Assembly (NCBI RefSeq): GCF_030285665.1
Contig: NZ_CP127295.1
Coordinates: forward strand, 6,882,001-6,946,000
DNA length: 64,000 bases
Source: Amycolatopsis mongoliensis
GTDB taxonomy: Bacteria; Actinomycetota; Actinomycetes; Mycobacteriales; Pseudonocardiaceae
Direction: 5' to 3'
Every line of letters starts with the position of its first letter. Within the stretch, counting starts at the first letter, position 1. Below the pieces are notes generated by a model. The model did not search any database. It was not told the origin of the DNA and saw nothing but the letters and a program-made list of their open reading frames with translations. The position numbers were made by a program, and so were the translations under genes. Positions 40,220 through 47,688 of this stretch are shown here, piece after piece.

Positions 40220-40933
40220 TCAGGGCCGGGTGGCGCGGATGATCGCCGAATGGAGCCGGTCGCCCGCTTCGTGGGTGACGCGCACGTCCACGCCGACGAA
40301 CCCGGCATCGCGCAGGAGTTCCCGGTAGCGGCCGGCGGTGAGCGCGCCGCCGAGGCATTCGACCGCGCCGGTGCGGACCGCGCCTTCGGCGTCGGTCAGG
40401 GTGTCGTCGGCCAGGATGTCGGTGATGCCGAGGCGGCCGCCGGGGCGCAGCACACGGGCGATCTCCGCGAACACGGCGGGCTTGTCGGACGAGAGCGCGA
40501 TGACGCAGTCGGAGATGACGACGTCGGCCGAGGCGTCCGGCAGCGGGACGTCCTCGATCGTGCCCTTGACGAACTCGGCGTTGCGCACGCCGGCCCGCTC
40601 GGCGTGCCGGCGGGCGAGGACGAGCATGTCGTCGGTCATGTCGAGGCCGATGGCGCGCCCGGTGGGGCCGACGCGGCGGGCGGAGAGCAGGACGTCGAGG
40701 CCGCCGCCGGAACCGAGGTCGAGCACGGTCTCACCGGGGCGCAGGTCGGCGACGGCCAGCGGGTTGCCGCACCCGAGGCTGGTCGCGGCCACCTCCGCCG
40801 GGATCTCCTCGCCGGCGTAGTGGGCGGTACCGAGCCGGTCGGCGTCGGTGCGCAGGCCGGTTTCCTCCCCGGCGAGGGCTCGCCGGGCGGCAGTGGCGTA
40901 GCGGGCGCGGACGGCGTCGCGGTCGGGGTTCAC
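40220..40933 (-). CDS. arsM: ArsM-type arsenite methyltransferase
   Basis: A 237-residue class I methyltransferase. [31 protein letters not shown] is diagnostic for ArsM, including the Cys of the SLGCGNP motif. [16 protein letters not shown] binds SAM, and [26 protein letters not shown] includes the second conserved Cys. A third Cys ([11 protein letters not shown]) fits the As(III)-binding set. It methylates As(III) to volatile or less toxic forms. The GTG at 40931-40933 starts it, but the upstream frame is open and continuous with the acr3 remnant. Confidence 0.9.
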
Positions 40934-41221
40934 CGGGCGGCCTCGCAGGAGACGTCGGCGAACTGCCGGACAGCGCGGCCCATGACGACGTCGGCGGCGG
41001 TCGGGGAGCACGACACGCACCGCTGGTTGACCCGGTAGAGCCGGGCGGTGCCGCGCGGGGGCGATGGGCAACGAGATCCCGTCGACCTGCACCGCGGACA
41101 ACGCGGTGTTCAGCCCGGGCACCCAGCGGCCGGCCAGCAGCCCGGCGGTCATCGCGGCCGCGATCCACACCGGCAGGAGCCGGTCCGAAGGGGACAGGCC
41201 GCCGACGACGCGGGCGCTCAT
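40934..41221 (-). pseudogene. acr3: acr3 arsenite-efflux gene, 5' remnant
   Basis: The ATG at 41219-41221 overlaps the arsR stop. The first ~55 codons are the N-terminus of an ACR3 pump: SPSDRLLPVWIAAAMTAGLLAG, then NTALSAVQVDGISLPIA. At about 41062 the homology stops; the rest of the ~350-residue carrier is gone. From there the same frame reads through unrelated Arg-rich residues into arsM without a stop. An alternative frame (RLYRVNQRCVSCSPTAADVV..CEAAR, ending at the arsM start) may be the tail of another lost gene that I do not recognise. Arsenite efflux through this pump cannot work. Confidence 0.8.
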
Positions 41222-41580
41222 GCGGGGACGATCGCGTCGCCGGGGACCAGCACCGCCGACAGCCGGGCCAGCACCTCGGGGTGGATGCGGTAGTACACCC
41301 ACGTCCCGCGGCGCTCACCGGTGATCAGGCCGGACTCGCGCAGCACCTTCAGGTGGTGGGAGATCGTCGGGCCGGTCAGGTCGAACGCGTCGGTCAGGTC
41401 GCACACGCACGCCTCGCCCCCGGCGTGGGACGCGATCAACGACAGCAACCGCAGCCGGACCGGGTCGGCCATCGCCTTGAACAGCTTCGACAGCTCGACG
41501 GCCTGGTCTTCGTTCAGCGGCTCGTGGGCCAGAGGGGAGCAGCAGGCGTCCAGCGCGACGACCGGAAGCTGTTTCGACAT
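41218..41580 (-). CDS. arsR: ArsR-family arsenic-responsive repressor
   Basis: A 120-residue SmtB/ArsR winged-helix protein: LSKLFKAMADPVRLRLLSLIAS, ACVCDLTDAFDLTGPTISHHLKVLRESGLI, TWVYYRIHPEVL. The ACVCDL Cys pair in the alpha-3 helix is the metalloid site, and an extra N-terminal DACCSP is typical of actinobacterial ArsR/CmtR-like forms. It is divergent from cadI/arsI and shares the operator region 41592-41641. It overlaps the acr3 remnant by 4 bp. Confidence 0.9.
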   Translation of the reverse strand: MSKQLPVVALDACCSPLAHEPLNEDQAVELSKLFKAMADPVRLRLLSLIASHAGGEACVCDLTDAFDLTGPTISHHLKVLRESGLITGERRGTWVYYRIHPEVLARLSAVLVPGDAIVPA

Positions 41581-41591
41581 ACCTCTATCTT

Positions 41592-41641
41592 GACAAGTAT
41601 CTATTCAGAGGGCAATCTACTTAGACAGACATCTATTCAAG
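41592..41641. promoter_or_regulatory. ArsR operator region, two direct repeats
   Basis: GACAAGTATCTATTCAGA (41592-41609) and GACAGACATCTATTCAAG (41624-41641) are imperfect direct copies 32 bp apart, about three helical turns. The spacer between arsR and cadI is AT-rich compared with its surroundings. Both divergent promoters must lie here. Confidence 0.65.
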
Positions 41642-41650
41642 GAGGATGGG

Positions 41651-42115
41651 ATGTCACGGGTACAGCTGGCCCTGCGGGTCGGGGACCTCGAAGGCTCGAT
41701 CGACTTCTACTCGAAGCTGTTCGGTACCGAACCGGCCAAGCGCCGGCCCGGCTACGCCAACTTCGCCATCGCCGAACCCGCGCTCAAGCTCGTGCTCCTG
41801 GAGGGCGAGCCCGGCCAGGCCACCGTCATGGACCACCTCGGCGTCGAGGTCGAGTCCACCAGCCAGGTCAGCGCGGCGAGCAAGCGCCTGACGGGCGAGG
41901 GCCTCGAGACCTTGACCGAGGACGACACCACCTGCTGCTACGCGGTGCAGGACAAGGTGTGGGTGCACGGCCCGGGGCAGGAGCCCTGGGAGGTCTACAC
42001 GGTCAAGGCCGACTCCGCGACCTTCGGTGCCGACAGCGCCGCCACGCCGGCGACTTGCTGCACTTCGGACGCGGAAGCGGGACCGGCTGCCCAGCCAGAG
42101 GGCTGTTGCTCCTGA
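41651..42115 (+). CDS. cadI: CadI/ArsI-family VOC protein
   Basis: A 154-residue protein. MSRVQLALRVGDLEGSIDFY, AEPALKLVLLEG, MDHLGVEVES, DDTTCCYAVQDKVWVHGPG and EPWEVYTVKADSATFG follow Mycobacterium CadI closely and ArsI C-As lyases in pattern. His (MDH) and Glu (WEVYT) ligands and the adjacent Cys pair (TTCCYA) are present; residue 5 is Gln, as in CadI, where ArsI has His, so Fe-dependent C-As lyase activity is doubtful. The C-terminus adds two more Cys pairs (TCC, GCC). GGAGG at 41641. Divergent from arsR. Confidence 0.88.
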   Translation: MSRVQLALRVGDLEGSIDFYSKLFGTEPAKRRPGYANFAIAEPALKLVLLEGEPGQATVMDHLGVEVESTSQVSAASKRLTGEGLETLTEDDTTCCYAVQDKVWVHGPGQEPWEVYTVKADSATFGADSAATPATCCTSDAEAGPAAQPEGCCS

Positions 42116-42136
42116 CCGTGCAGGCGCCTTGGCCGG

Positions 42137-45100
42137 TCAGGGCTTCTGGTACGGGCGCGTCCCGCCGGTCTCGGCGTTGTGCTCGGTGACCTTGATGCCG
42201 TTCTGCTCCAGCTTCGGGTACTCGATCTTGTCGAAGATGTTGTCGGGCCGGCGGTAGGGGTAGATGTCGCCGTTCGGGTTCGGGATCCCGGTGCTGGTCT
42301 CCCTCCCGGGCTTGTCCGGGAAGACGACGTGGGTGTCCGGCGTCGAGTTCTTCGCGAACGTTTCCGACGCGTGGTCCCACTTCTCCTTGACGAAGTTCTT
42401 CTGGTCGAGGTTGGACGTGCCGTGGTCGCCGTGCGACCAGTACCCCTTGCCCGGGTCCTTCATCATCTTGTCGTCGACCCAGCCGGGCATCTTCAGGTGG
42501 TTGTCGGCGACGAGACCCTCGAGGGTGTTGCCGCCGTGCTGCTTGGCGACCGAGTTCGCCTTGAACTCGATCGAGCCCAGGTACGGGTCGTCCGGCGCGC
42601 CGTGGCCCTGCTTGTACCCGCCGGACCAGAAGAAGTGCTTGTCGGCGCGCATCATCTGGTCCAGGTCGGGCTTGAACTTCTCCCACTCCTCGCGCGTCAT
42701 GCGGTTCACGTCGACGCCGAGGTCGGGCTTCTTCGCCGGTGGCGGCTTGAGGTCCGGGTGCTGGTCGAAGTCGTCCGGGCGGGGCCGCTTCGTGCTCGAG
42801 GGCCCGCCGGTCTTGCCGCACGTGCCCACGAGCCCGAGCGGGTCGCCGGTGAGCAGCGGTTCGGTGACGTAGCCGACGGGGTCGGGCGCGGCGGCGAGCC
42901 CGAGCGGGTCCTGGCTGAGGTACCGCGCGGTTTCCGGGTCGTAGTAGCGGAACACGTTGTAGTGCAGCCCGGTTTCCTCGTCGCGGTGCTGCCCGGGGAA
43001 CGCCAGCGGGACGGCCGCCCCGTCGGCACCGGGCAGCGGCGCGCCCCAGAAGCTGCTGCGGTCCCGCCAGACCAGCGCGCCCCGCGCGTCCAGCAGCTCG
43101 GTCGGCGTGCCCGCGGGCGAGGTGATCACGCAGTGGAACCGTTCCTCGGACGCGGTGCGCTCGACCTGCACGACCGGGCGGCCGTCGGCGGGATGGCGCT
43201 CCCAGGTGAGGATCCGGCGCGATCCGTCCGCGCCGGACTCGACGCGCTCCACGAGATCGAAGCCGCTCCAGAGGAACCGCGTGTCGGCGGCGAGCTCGGG
43301 TTCGCCGTCGGCGCCGGTGACCCAGCGCCGCTTGGCGAACCGGCGGCCCAGCGGGTCGTAGTGGTACGTCCAGCGCGCGCCGTCCGGGGTCCGCACGCCG
43401 CGCATCCGGTCCAGCTGGTCCCACGAGTAGGTCCAGGACCGCTCGCCGCGGTGCCGGCCGGTGACCCGGCCCTGCGCGTCGCCGGTGTATCGGGTGCCGC
43501 CCGCCGAGACCAGCGTGTTCCCGCGGTAGGTCCGCGGACCCGGCAGCGACGGCGAGTCGGCCGAGGTGACACTGCCCGCGGCGTCGCGGGCGAACCGCTC
43601 GACCCCGCCGGGTCCGCGCGCCTCGCCGACCCGGCCCGCGGGGTCGAACTCCAGCCGCCAGGTGTCCCCGACCGCGGCGAGCCTGCCGTCGGGCCGGTAG
43701 CCGTAGGTGCGCTGCCCGACGCCGGCGATCTCCTCCTCGGCGAGCCGGTCCTCCGCGTCGAACCGCCGCCGGAGCAGCACCGTCCCGTCGACGCCGCGGG
43801 CGACCTCGCGCCCGGCCGCGTCGTGCTCGAACCCGACGTCGTGCCCGGCGATCCGCAGCGAGCGCGGCAGGCCCGCGTCGTCGAAGGTCCATGCACTGTC
43901 CACACCGGACGAGGTGCGGCGGCGCAGGAGCGTTCCTTCGTAGCTCCAGGCCACGCCGAGCCCGTTGATCGTCTCGGCGATCACCCGGCCGCGCCCGTCC
44001 CGGACGATCTCCAGGCGGGACTCGGCGTTCTCGGCGAGGGCCAGCCGGCCCAGGGCGTCGTAGGCGTAGCGGGTGACGTCCTCGGCCGTCCGCCGTTCGA
44101 CGACGTTGCCGAGGAGGTCGTAGGCGAACTCGGTGGGTTCGCCGAGGCCGTTGGTCATGCGCCGCAGCTGCCCGGCCTCGTCGTAGGCGTAGGTGAGCCG
44201 GCGGCCGTCGTAGTCGGTCTCCTCGACCAGACGCCCCGCCGGGTCGTAGGTGTAGCGCCAGGTGAGGCCCCGCGGGTTCGTCACCGCGGTGAGCCGCAGT
44301 TCGGTGTCGTAGCCGTAGGTCGTCCGCGCGCCCGCCGCGTCGATGTCGGCCACGGCGAGCCCGAACGGCCCGTACTGGCGGCGCCGCACGCCGCCTGCCG
44401 CGTCGCGGTACTCGACGACCTGCCCTTCCGCGTCGTGCAGCCAGGTTTCCCGGTCGCCGTGCGGGCCGATCCGCCAGGCGCGGCGGCCCTCGGCCGTCCA
44501 GCCCAGCCGGACCGCGCCGCCGGAGGCGGTGTGCACGAGCTGCGGCCGGCCGAACACGTCGCGGTCCCCGGGGCGCCCGTCGGTCGCCGGTGCGTCGGCG
44601 AGCGGGTCGGGCGCGGCTGCCGGATCGCCCGCCCCCGCGGCACCGGGCAGGACGGTGAACGGGTCGGCCGCGGGCACCACCCGGTGGACGGCGGCGTCGC
44701 CGTCGCCCACCTGCAGCCGCACCTCGCCCTCGGCCGCGGGTGCCGTCCGGACCACGGACCCGTCGGGGCGGATGACGGTGGCGAGCTCGCCGTCGCGGTA
44801 GTCGTACCGGGTTTCGCGGCCCAGTTCGTCCACTTGGGACAGCAGTTGGTCGTAGCGGCTCCAGGTGTAGCGCCGGGAGCCGCCCAGCGGGTCGATCCGT
44901 TCGACGAGCTGCCCGGCGTCGTTGAGCCGGTAGGTCCAGGTGTGGCCGAGCGCGTCGGTGTGCCGGGTGGCGCCGGGCTCGTAGGCGAACGTCGCGTTGT
45001 AGAAGCCGTTCGCCCCGACGGTGCGCACGCAGCGGCCGGCGGCGTCGTAGACGTAGCGGTACCAGGTGCCGGCGCGGTCCTGCCAGCCGACGAGCCGGTG

Positions 45101-46828
45101 CTCGAAGTCGTAGTCCAGCGTCATCGGGCGGCCCGCGAAGTCCGCGACGGTGGTCAGCTGGCCCAGCCGGTTGTAGCCGAACCGGACCAGCGGCGCGGCG
45201 TCGGGCGCGCCCAGGGCGACCACCCGGCCCTCGGCGGTGCCGATCCGGATCTCGACGCCGTCGTCGCGGCGCAGCGCGGTGGGCGTGCCGTCCGCGGCGT
45301 AGGCGATCTCGGTGCGGCTGCCGTTCTGCTCGATCGCCGTGAGCGCCGCGATCCGGCCGTTGCCGGTGAAGTGCAGTTCACGCTCGCCGGTGGAGAGCCG
45401 GTAGCCGCCGGGGGAGCGGTGCAGCGGGTGGCGCGGGCCTTCCAGCGGCAGCACGGGTCCGCCGGCGGGCACCGGGTAGACGAGGACCATGCCGTCCTCG
45501 GCGTGGAACCGGACGTGCTCGGGGCCGACCTCCAGCCGCTGGTCCAGGGTGGAGGCCCAGGACCGGCCGAACCAGCGGCCCGCGCGGTAGGCCGACAGGT
45601 GGGTGCGGGACAGCTCCAGGTCGCCCGCCTCGCTCGGCAGGGTCAGGTCGACCTGGGTCATCACGACCTCGCCGGTGGCGATGTCCACCGGGTCCCCGCA
45701 GTAGGTCTTCGAGTCCGACGGCAGGGCGCGGTCGCGCGGGCCGTCCCCCTTGGGGCCGCCCTTCGGCGTGCCCCCGCCGTCGGGCGCGCCCTTCGGGGTG
45801 CCCCCGGGCGGCGCCTCGACCTTCGGCGGCGGCGGGTCCGCCGGCGGGTCGGTCTTGGGTGGCGGGTCGCTCTTCGGGGGCGGGGTGTGGTCGCCGGAGG
45901 GTGTGGTCGAGTCGCCCTTCGCTCCCGAAGGTGTGGTGCTGTCCCCGCCCTTGGGCGTGGGCGGTGGGTCGGTCTTCGGCGGCGGGGCGTCCGGCCCGCC
46001 CTTGCCCTTGGGCCCGTCGAGGCCCTTGGGGTTGCCCTTGATGTCGATGCTCTTCGGCGGCGGCGCGGCCTTGCCCGGTTTGATGTTCTTGAGTGCCTTG
46101 GCGGCGTCGGAGAACAGGTCACCGGCTCGTTTGAGCAGCGGGATGAGTGCTTTCAGGGCGGTGACCAGCCGCTTGACCAGGTCGGCGATCTTCGACGCCG
46201 TTTTGGCGACCGCGTTGATGACCTGGGGCACGACCCAGGTCAGGCCGATGCCGAGGGTGAAGACGACCTGCAGTGCCCAGCTGATCAGGTGGCCGATGAG
46301 TTCGGCGATGATGTCGCGGACCAGCGCGCGGACCGCCGCGACGACTTCACCGGCGGTTTTGACGCCGCTGGAGGCGCCTTCGCAGCCCTTTTGCGCGGTC
46401 TCCAGCAGTGTCACGGTGTCCTGTGCGCGCTGCCGGTAGCTGTCTCCGCCGTTCCCGGTCCACGACGCGGTGTCGGTCTTGACCATGCCGGTCAGGTCTT
46501 CGCCGACGCTGCCCAGTTCGGTGGCGATGTTCTTCCAGGTCTCCGACTGGGCGGCGATCTCGTCGGCGTTGCCGGTCAGGCCGTTGAGGGCTTCCTTGAG
46601 CGGGCCGACGTGCTCGATCAACCAGCCGACGCCGGCGGCGAGGATCGCGCCGAACGGGTCCATCGCCATCGACAGGGCGTCCAGCGCGGTGCCGACGGCG
46701 CCGAGCGCGACCGAGGCCCAGTCGCCGCTTTCGATCGCCGACTTCAGGTCGTTCGCCGACTCCAGCAGCGACACACCCGAGTACGCCTTGGTCGAGTCCT
46801 TGGTCTCCGCGACCAGCGGGTTGCCCAC
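42137..46828 (-). CDS. RHS/YD-repeat polymorphic toxin with ADP-ribosyl cyclase-like C-terminal domain
   Basis: A 1563-residue protein. Residues 1-165 are a helical WXG100-like head with a W-T-G turn (ASWTGNGGDSY), suggesting type VII-like export. A hydrophobic stretch (170-215) and a Pro/Lys/Gly linker (250-375) follow. CGDPVDIATGEVVMTQVDL opens the RHS part (DUF6531), with many YD repeats (GRLVEETDYDGRRLTYAYDE) to the core end YLSQDPLGLAAA and GDPLGLVG (to 1335). The last ~190 residues match Aplysia ADP-ribosyl cyclase and CD38: HFFWSGGYKQGH (W1401), NTLEGLV (E1437), KEKWDHASETFA (W1484) and YRRPDNIFDKIEYPKL (E1536). These are the NAD-site residues of that family. GTG start with GAAAGG. No immunity gene lies downstream on this strand. 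Confidence 0.88.
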   Translation of the reverse strand: MGNPLVAETKDSTKAYSGVSLLESANDLKSAIESGDWASVALGAVGTALDALSMAMDPFGAILAAGVGWLIEHVGPLKEALNGLTGNADEIAAQSETWKNIATELGSVGEDLTGMVKTDTASWTGNGGDSYRQRAQDTVTLLETAQKGCEGASSGVKTAGEVVAAVRALVRDIIAELIGHLISWALQVVFTLGIGLTWVVPQVINAVAKTASKIADLVKRLVTALKALIPLLKRAGDLFSDAAKALKNIKPGKAAPPPKSIDIKGNPKGLDGPKGKGGPDAPPPKTDPPPTPKGGDSTTPSGAKGDSTTPSGDHTPPPKSDPPPKTDPPADPPPPKVEAPPGGTPKGAPDGGGTPKGGPKGDGPRDRALPSDSKTYCGDPVDIATGEVVMTQVDLTLPSEAGDLELSRTHLSAYRAGRWFGRSWASTLDQRLEVGPEHVRFHAEDGMVLVYPVPAGGPVLPLEGPRHPLHRSPGGYRLSTGERELHFTGNGRIAALTAIEQNGSRTEIAYAADGTPTALRRDDGVEIRIGTAEGRVVALGAPDAAPLVRFGYNRLGQLTTVADFAGRPMTLDYDFEHRLVGWQDRAGTWYRYVYDAAGRCVRTVGANGFYNATFAYEPGATRHTDALGHTWTYRLNDAGQLVERIDPLGGSRRYTWSRYDQLLSQVDELGRETRYDYRDGELATVIRPDGSVVRTAPAAEGEVRLQVGDGDAAVHRVVPAADPFTVLPGAAGAGDPAAAPDPLADAPATDGRPGDRDVFGRPQLVHTASGGAVRLGWTAEGRRAWRIGPHGDRETWLHDAEGQVVEYRDAAGGVRRRQYGPFGLAVADIDAAGARTTYGYDTELRLTAVTNPRGLTWRYTYDPAGRLVEETDYDGRRLTYAYDEAGQLRRMTNGLGEPTEFAYDLLGNVVERRTAEDVTRYAYDALGRLALAENAESRLEIVRDGRGRVIAETINGLGVAWSYEGTLLRRRTSSGVDSAWTFDDAGLPRSLRIAGHDVGFEHDAAGREVARGVDGTVLLRRRFDAEDRLAEEEIAGVGQRTYGYRPDGRLAAVGDTWRLEFDPAGRVGEARGPGGVERFARDAAGSVTSADSPSLPGPRTYRGNTLVSAGGTRYTGDAQGRVTGRHRGERSWTYSWDQLDRMRGVRTPDGARWTYHYDPLGRRFAKRRWVTGADGEPELAADTRFLWSGFDLVERVESGADGSRRILTWERHPADGRPVVQVERTASEERFHCVITSPAGTPTELLDARGALVWRDRSSFWGAPLPGADGAAVPLAFPGQHRDEETGLHYNVFRYYDPETARYLSQDPLGLAAAPDPVGYVTEPLLTGDPLGLVGTCGKTGGPSSTKRPRPDDFDQHPDLKPPPAKKPDLGVDVNRMTREEWEKFKPDLDQMMRADKHFFWSGGYKQGHGAPDDPYLGSIEFKANSVAKQHGGNTLEGLVADNHLKMPGWVDDKMMKDPGKGYWSHGDHGTSNLDQKNFVKEKWDHASETFAKNSTPDTHVVFPDKPGRETSTGIPNPNGDIYPYRRPDNIFDKIEYPKLEQNGIKVTEHNAETGGTRPYQKP

Positions 46829-46962: not shown

Positions 46963-47688
46963 TCACCGCACGGGCCGGCCGTCGAGGAAGAAGCCGCCGG
47001 TGGGGCCGTCGGCGGGCAGGGTCGCGGCCCAGACGATGCCGAGCGCGGCCTCCGCGGGTGAGCGGTCGTCGGCGTCGTCGCCGCGCTCGGGGTGGGTGGC
47101 GACCGAGCCGGGGTCGACGGCGTTGACCAGGATGCCCGTGTCGCGCAGTTCGGCGGCGAGGGACGCGGTGAGGGCGTTGAGGGCGTACTTGGCCAGCGAA
47201 TACCCGGGCGACCGGACGCCCCGGGTCGCGGCGGTGAACTGCGCGACGGCCGCGCTGGAGACAGCGACGATCCGGGCGGCCGGGGCGGCTCGCAGCAGCG
47301 GCAGGCACGCCTGGACCAGGGCCCAAGCGCCGAGGACGTCGACCGCGTAGGCGGTACTGGCCTCGGCCAGGTCCGCGTCGAGCACGGACGTCGTGGCGAA
47401 GTCGGGCATGGCGGCCGCGTTGTTGACCAGCACGTCGAGCCGGCCGGCGGTGGTGCGGACGAACTCGGCGCAGGCCGCGACGTCCGCCGGGTCCGTGACG
47501 TCGAGCCGCACCGCGTCCGCGGAGAGTCCTTCGGCGCCGAGCTTCGCGGCCAGCGCGCGCGTCCGGTCGAGGTCCCGGCCGGCGAGCACGGCGTGGTAGC
47601 CGCGGGTGGCGAGCTCACGGGCGACGGCGAACCCGAGGCCCTGAGGGCGGCTCGCGCCGGTGACGAGGGCGGTCTCGGTTTCGTTCAT
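46963..47688 (-). CDS. Short-chain dehydrogenase/reductase
   Basis: A 241-residue SDR. TALVTGASRPQGLGFAVAREL is the cofactor loop (G-A-S-R-P-Q-G-L-G), LDVLVNNAAAMPDF the NNAG variant, AARIVAVSSAAVAQF the Ser strand and SPGYSLAKYALNALTASLAAEL the active Y-x-x-x-K. It is intact, unlike the two other SDR traces in this window. It is divergent from the MarR gene at 47753 and shares a dyad with it. Substrate unknown. Confidence 0.9.
   Translation of the reverse strand: MNETETALVTGASRPQGLGFAVARELATRGYHAVLAGRDLDRTRALAAKLGAEGLSADAVRLDVTDPADVAACAEFVRTTAGRLDVLVNNAAAMPDFATTSVLDADLAEASTAYAVDVLGAWALVQACLPLLRAAPAARIVAVSSAAVAQFTAATRGVRSPGYSLAKYALNALTASLAAELRDTGILVNAVDPGSVATHPERGDDADDRSPAEAALGIVWAATLPADGPTGGFFLDGRPVR

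Follow-up and report, generated by a model that had tools for sequence, protein, structure and literature searches.

The closest described relatives of the toxin considered here are Tac1 of Streptococcus parasanguinis (PDB 9OUF; PMC12356396), which is carried by an LXG protein and encoded next to an Imm74 gene, and the Pantoea ananatis protein ARCtox (PANA_2924; PDB 9RO8; PMC12605009), which has a PAAR carrier of the type VI secretion system and lies next to its immunity gene, PANA_2923. Both contain an ADP-ribosyl cyclase (ARC) domain. We analysed a 64,000-nucleotide stretch of the Amycolatopsis mongoliensis genome (RefSeq GCF_030285665.1, contig NZ_CP127295.1, positions 6,882,001 to 6,946,000), referred to below as the window, in which a minus-strand gene at 42137–46828 encodes a protein of 1563 residues. 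The carrier, in contrast to that of Tac1, is of the WXG/RHS type. The C-terminal domain is very probably a bacterial Tox-ARC warhead that would drain NAD(P)+, mounted on an RHS carrier and encoded by a solitary toxin gene. Its fold and active-site residues come from computation; its activity, export and release would follow those of the families to which it belongs.

An initial annotation of this DNA had assigned the end of the protein to the Aplysia/CD38 type of cyclase and had proposed a fold comparison and a profile search with that segment. The protein length, the motifs quoted and the residue numbers proved exact when the sequence was re-read. The ARC domain, of the NAD(P)+ hydrolase type, spans residues 1374–1563 (42140–42709, minus strand). 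Searched as a single sequence against the PDB with phmmer, it matches 9ro8 (E 8.3e-5) and 9ouf (E 1.6e-3), and with a profile of 24 homologous domains these matches rise to E 3.9e-14 and 5.6e-15, respectively. At the level of sequence, the likeness to these two structures exceeds chance. The link to the metazoan enzymes is less direct: CD38 and Aplysia chains are found by the same profile at E 0.12–0.70, and the match to PF02267 scores 12.2 bits, under the Pfam gathering cut-off of 25. Computational fold comparison finds an ARC fold and a CD38-like core. The assignment therefore stands for the fold, through which the relationship to Aplysia cyclase and CD38 appears, and is weak as a direct sequence link.

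The annotation had also named four NAD-handling residues, and all four have counterparts. W1401 (in FFWSGG; 42626–42628), E1437 (in NTLEG; 42518–42520), W1484 (in KEKWDHASE; 42377–42379) and E1536 (in KIEYPKL; 42221–42223), all on the minus strand, align to Trp, Glu, Trp and Glu of both 9OUF and 9RO8 and are the same in all 24 aligned ARC domains, whose identity to the window's domain goes down to 33%. By alignment, E1437 (the TLE glutamate) corresponds to Tac1 E516 and CD38 E146, and E1536, the catalytic glutamate, to Tac1 E573 and CD38 E226. The TLE motif is kept as well in all eight ARC genes of the family Pseudonocardiaceae that sit on other carriers. In the mechanism that we propose, NAD(P)+ would bind in the cleft between the two lobes of the domain, E1536 would release nicotinamide and E1437 would push the reaction to linear ADP-ribose; the resulting loss of NAD(P)+ would kill or arrest the target cell.

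The product expected from this active site differs from that of the metazoan signalling enzymes invoked at first. In Tac1, E573 is essential and removal of E516 lets cyclic ADP-ribose (cADPR) out, which assigns to the E1437-type glutamate the role of favouring hydrolysis over cADPR release (PMC12356396). Two characterised relatives that keep the TLE glutamate yield linear ADP-ribose, with cADPR undetected (PMC12356396; PMC12605009). Because this glutamate is kept here and the published enzymes that have it give ADP-ribose, linear ADP-ribose is the expected product. Of the activities proposed earlier, NAD consumption is retained, whereas cADPR or nicotinic acid adenine dinucleotide phosphate as a signal product was set aside, and the case thus corrects the expected product from cADPR to ADP-ribose. 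For ARCtox, PMC12605009 reports that alanine at each of the four residues abolishes toxicity. It is very unlikely that the protein is no weapon at all, but a secreted NAD-processing enzyme acting on extracellular NAD in the manner of Nac1, a bacterial ARC protein of Actinophytocola oryzae (PMC12356396). Nac1 likewise has no apparent immunity partner, but it carries Ala at the position of the second glutamate, which all 24 aligned domains keep; it makes cADPR beside ADP-ribose, is predicted to bear a Sec signal peptide and is not tied to a toxin system, whereas the ARC domain here takes the place of the toxin on an RHS carrier.

The solitary character of the gene emerges from its surroundings. 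According to the gene calls, the toxin gene has no same-strand partner in the window, and its stop codon is separated by 21 bp (42116–42136) from that of a convergent gene, so there is no space for an immunity gene directly downstream. The comparison was extended to relatives, where genes were called at the fetched ARC loci by a caller trained on the codon use of the window and applied with a minimum score, which small, oddly composed genes can escape. Together with the window, 28 RHS-ARC loci have a whole C-terminal end. Four of these (L013, L057, L063 and L066) were kept although their N-terminal ends are incomplete; set aside were partial loci (L056, L065), a locus with the same sequence start as L014 (L127), loci with no gene called (L062, L067), giant proteins with an interior ARC domain (L114, L121), fragments (L128, L131) and a locus from another family (L130).

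A recognised immunity gene lies directly downstream in none of the 28 loci. The next gene is convergent in 16, within 25 bp in 8 of these, and on the same strand in the other 12. Seven of the same-strand genes occur at one permease site; six encode an amidohydrolase and one a hydrolase whose gene follows the amidohydrolase elsewhere. The rest are, by eye, a CocE-like hydrolase, a large regulator-like protein and a transposase-like gene 1051 bp on, together with a PaaX-regulator fragment (L058) and a 51-aa open reading frame (ORF; L059). The L058 ORF, 106 aa long and overlapping the end of the RHS gene, was considered as an immunity candidate and rejected; seven of its eight matches are named as PaaX-type regulators, and it is read as a PaaX fragment for that reason (the eighth match is the protein itself, 'hypothetical'). 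The 51-aa ORF has no counterpart among the 12 largest groups formed by 94 same-strand candidate ORFs, and these groups link only loci at the same site or close relatives. More than 1 kb behind the toxin is free of called genes at L057 and L061, and at L051 a regulator-like same-strand ORF that was not called lies ~60 bp on (by eye).

The same picture holds away from the RHS carrier. The eight ARC genes on other carriers, set apart manually without a domain scan, include four with a same-strand next gene and none with a recognised adjacent immunity gene. By eye, the smaller ARC proteins at L116 to L120 and L122 are preceded by a separate gene whose product looks like the N-terminal part of the RHS carrier and is possibly a type VII secretion system (T7SS) partner. 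Searches for Imm74 and Imm63 covered 40 of 42 ARC-positive genomes of the family (G624 and G639, with weak matches, were excluded): Imm74 was found in 0/40, and Imm63 in 1/40, on a different contig from the ARC gene. As a single control in the same genome, a T7SS-type protein with an N-terminus like that of the RHS carrier (L070) is directly followed by an Imm49 gene (E 8.6e-56), indicating that immunity genes can be recognised here. What would define a Tox-ARC toxin–immunity pair, a cognate immunity gene next to the toxin, be it Imm74, Imm63 or another, was not found, and in these comparisons RHS-ARC behaves as a solitary toxin gene, with no partner recognised beside it or its relatives.

At one conserved site the RHS gene also appears to come or go as a single-gene unit, with gain and loss indistinguishable. 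We fetched 30 permease loci and compared the 19 closest orthologues. An RHS gene of the ARC kind adjoins the permease gene in 6 of these (one decayed), permease and amidohydrolase are direct neighbours, 159–214 bp apart, in 4, neither RHS gene nor amidohydrolase lies within the 1500-bp flank of the permease in 8, and the amidohydrolase is on the other side in 1. Between the filled site L053 (5292–10009) and the empty site L134, the sequences stay homologous for 84 bp beyond the permease start and again from ~20 bp behind the RHS stop; the unit gained or lost would therefore comprise a ~129 bp leader, the RHS ORF and ~20 bp. In the same pair, a palindrome before the amidohydrolase, TTTGGTATACCAAA, is kept on the far side. 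The decayed copy (L056, genome G019) has a broken carrier and a short ARC ORF left.

Several points weigh against reading the gene as a solitary, exported NAD(P)+-draining toxin. Made in the cytosol with no immunity protein at hand, such an NADase should damage its producer, as expected from Tac1 variants of strongly reduced activity that are still toxic in Escherichia coli (PMC12356396), and a safeguard that we have not found must exist. ARCtox E299A, altered at the second glutamate, is non-toxic yet depletes NAD like the wild type (PMC12605009), which leaves the roles of the two glutamates incompletely settled. At L130, from outside the family, a same-strand gene of 351 aa, with no Pfam match better than E 0.09, begins 57 bp behind the ARC-bearing ORF. 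Finally, the matches that suggest T7SS export all score under the curated cut-offs (WXG100_2, 25.3 with 27 needed; T7SS_signal, 23.3 with 27; WXG100_ESAT6, 18.3 with 44.85), and the AlphaFold2 model of the N-terminus, at pLDDT 45, is too poor for use. The genome has T7SS machinery, with three EccC genes above the curated cut-off. Given the sub-threshold matches and the failed N-terminal model, we rate export through one of its three ESX systems as likely and go no further; the WXG-like N-terminal region would direct the protein to one of these type VII machines, while transport and later release of the toxin would fall to the RHS shell.

Three readings of the missing immunity gene are compatible with the sequence, which does not tell them apart: the toxin may be aimed at something other than bacterial kin, it may be shielded, or its immunity gene may be unlinked and of an undescribed family. 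It is a genuine but minor possibility that this is an ordinary antibacterial ARC toxin and that a gene elsewhere in the genome encodes its immunity protein, of a family not yet described. Immunity to other ARC toxins is provided by proteins of two or more unrelated folds (PMC12356396), which leaves room for a third whose gene is unlinked; the genome-wide search covered Imm74 and Imm63, and the gene behind the L130 ORF, outside this family, also speaks for such a partner. However, none of the 28 loci has a recognised same-strand partner, the coming and going of the RHS gene alone at one site would separate it from immunity encoded elsewhere, and the same genome keeps an Imm49 gene beside another T7SS-type protein.

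That the RHS shell or a state before export keeps ARC inactive, and the protein never re-enters kin, would make immunity needless whatever the target. RHS repeats are described as a cocoon around the C-terminal toxin (PMC10327511), and neither of the two sibling RHS proteins of this genome that share the carrier (L068, 8906209 region; L069, 9320785 region) has a same-strand next gene. The tails of these siblings are different ones, and for one of them Pfam gives a VirD5-like match (E 3.7e-6). Shielding is nevertheless rather unlikely as the explanation: the eight ARC genes on other carriers are equally without a recognised immunity neighbour, and the RHS toxins of PMC10327511 and PMC13285283 do have immunity genes.

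The annotation had raised a target outside bacteria on the grounds of a eukaryote-like signal product. That reason fails, and a different one is the immunity gene recognised at 0/28 RHS-ARC loci. A toxin against fungi, protists or animals, for which immunity to attack by kin would not be kept, can be entertained with caution. Parts of the literature are compatible with it, in that an attenuated ARCtox clone inhibits yeast (PMC12605009) and host-directed toxins have been linked with missing immunity (PMC3482391). On the other side, the Tox-ARC toxins of free-living bacteria are argued in PMC3482391 as well to serve within-species conflict because Imm74 accompanies them; moreover, the producing cell would have to be protected against cytosolic toxin all the same, and NAD loss damages any cell. 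Taken furthest, the Pseudonocardiaceae ARC would be a solitary, immunity-free, type VII-exported and single-gene-mobile NAD(P)ase against cells other than kin bacteria, most likely eukaryotes, a proposal that we regard as speculative. If true, it would describe a polymorphic-toxin lineage freed from the toxin–immunity rule. If the lack of immunity holds, the system offers a direct test of whether missing immunity marks toxins against other kinds of cell, and of how a bacterium can produce an enzyme that destroys NAD fast and come to no harm.

The solitary RHS-ARC gene encodes a maintained protein, as judged from NG86 dN/dS values of 0.08–0.31 for the ARC domain (0.20–0.34 for the RHS core; nine chosen pairs). 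A decayed toxin is not favoured. Counted at E <= 0.001 with its own genome included, the ARC domain occurs in 25 of 60 genomes of the genus, 27 of 297 of the family, 0 of 40 others of the order and 3 of 394 of the class. Searched against proteins, the last 228 residues gave 4 homologues at the same threshold. At L114 and L121 the domain is interior to giant proteins, whose open frames span 6742 and 4476 aa; by eye, WXG-type genes stand in front of them. A literature search, with most subscription journals outside its coverage, found no paper on ADP-ribosyl cyclase in Amycolatopsis and none on polymorphic toxins in Pseudonocardiaceae.

The ORF list and a codon-model gene call (score 684, GTG start) agree on one single gene in a genome of one 10.8-Mb contig (completeness 100). 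From the N-terminus, the protein comprises a WXG100-like, T7SS-type region (residues 86–199, 46232–46573; Pfam WXG100_2, E 1.6e-5; T7SS_signal, E 7e-5), a DUF6531 domain opening the RHS part (378–451, 45476–45697; PF20148, E 1.3e-19), 12 RHS-repeat stretches, the best at 861–897 (44138–44248; PF05593, E 1.7e-49), an RHS-associated core (1261–1333, 42830–43048; TIGR03696, E 3.6e-17, 62.7 bits, cut-off 32.5) and ~190 further residues, all on the minus strand. RHS/YD repeats and core mark it as an RHS polymorphic toxin, with ARC in the C-terminal position behind DUF6531, repeats and Rhs_assc_core. Two DPLGL motifs of the core, at 1307 and 1329, may have a role in self-cleavage. An antisense ORF (42264–42872, plus strand, 202 aa) was passed over by the gene caller, and a search of an anti-phage defence library gave no match.

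The neighbouring genes lie outside the system. The convergent one encodes an ArsI/CadI heavy-metal enzyme (41651–42115, plus strand; NF041414, 207 bits, cut-off 116), and the upstream one an SDR oxidoreductase (46963–47688, minus strand). Genes for an arsM-like methyltransferase, arsR and ArsI/CadI (40220–42115) adjoin the toxin. Among 30 CadI loci, the window's included, arsR adjoins cadI in all 30 and the other side of cadI varies; as an empty-site comparison, an SDR or RHS gene lies within the 1500-bp flank in 0 of the 29 others.

Compared with published ARC toxins, the unusual part of this system appears to be the immunity gene, unrecognised beside the toxin and its relatives. The Tox-ARC toxins of Zhang et al. 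2012 (PMC3482391) are described as typically coupled to Imm74 and also to Imm63, neither of which was found beside the RHS-ARC genes here. The domain class is the same, and that paper already tabulates it on WXG/LXG T7SS carriers and together with RHS repeats, so the annotation's remark that such warheads are rarely discussed is outdated. With CD38, BST1 and Aplysia ADP-ribosyl cyclase (PF02267) the domain shares the core fold and the four active-site residues, although some elements of the metazoan fold are missing from the bacterial one (PMC12356396).
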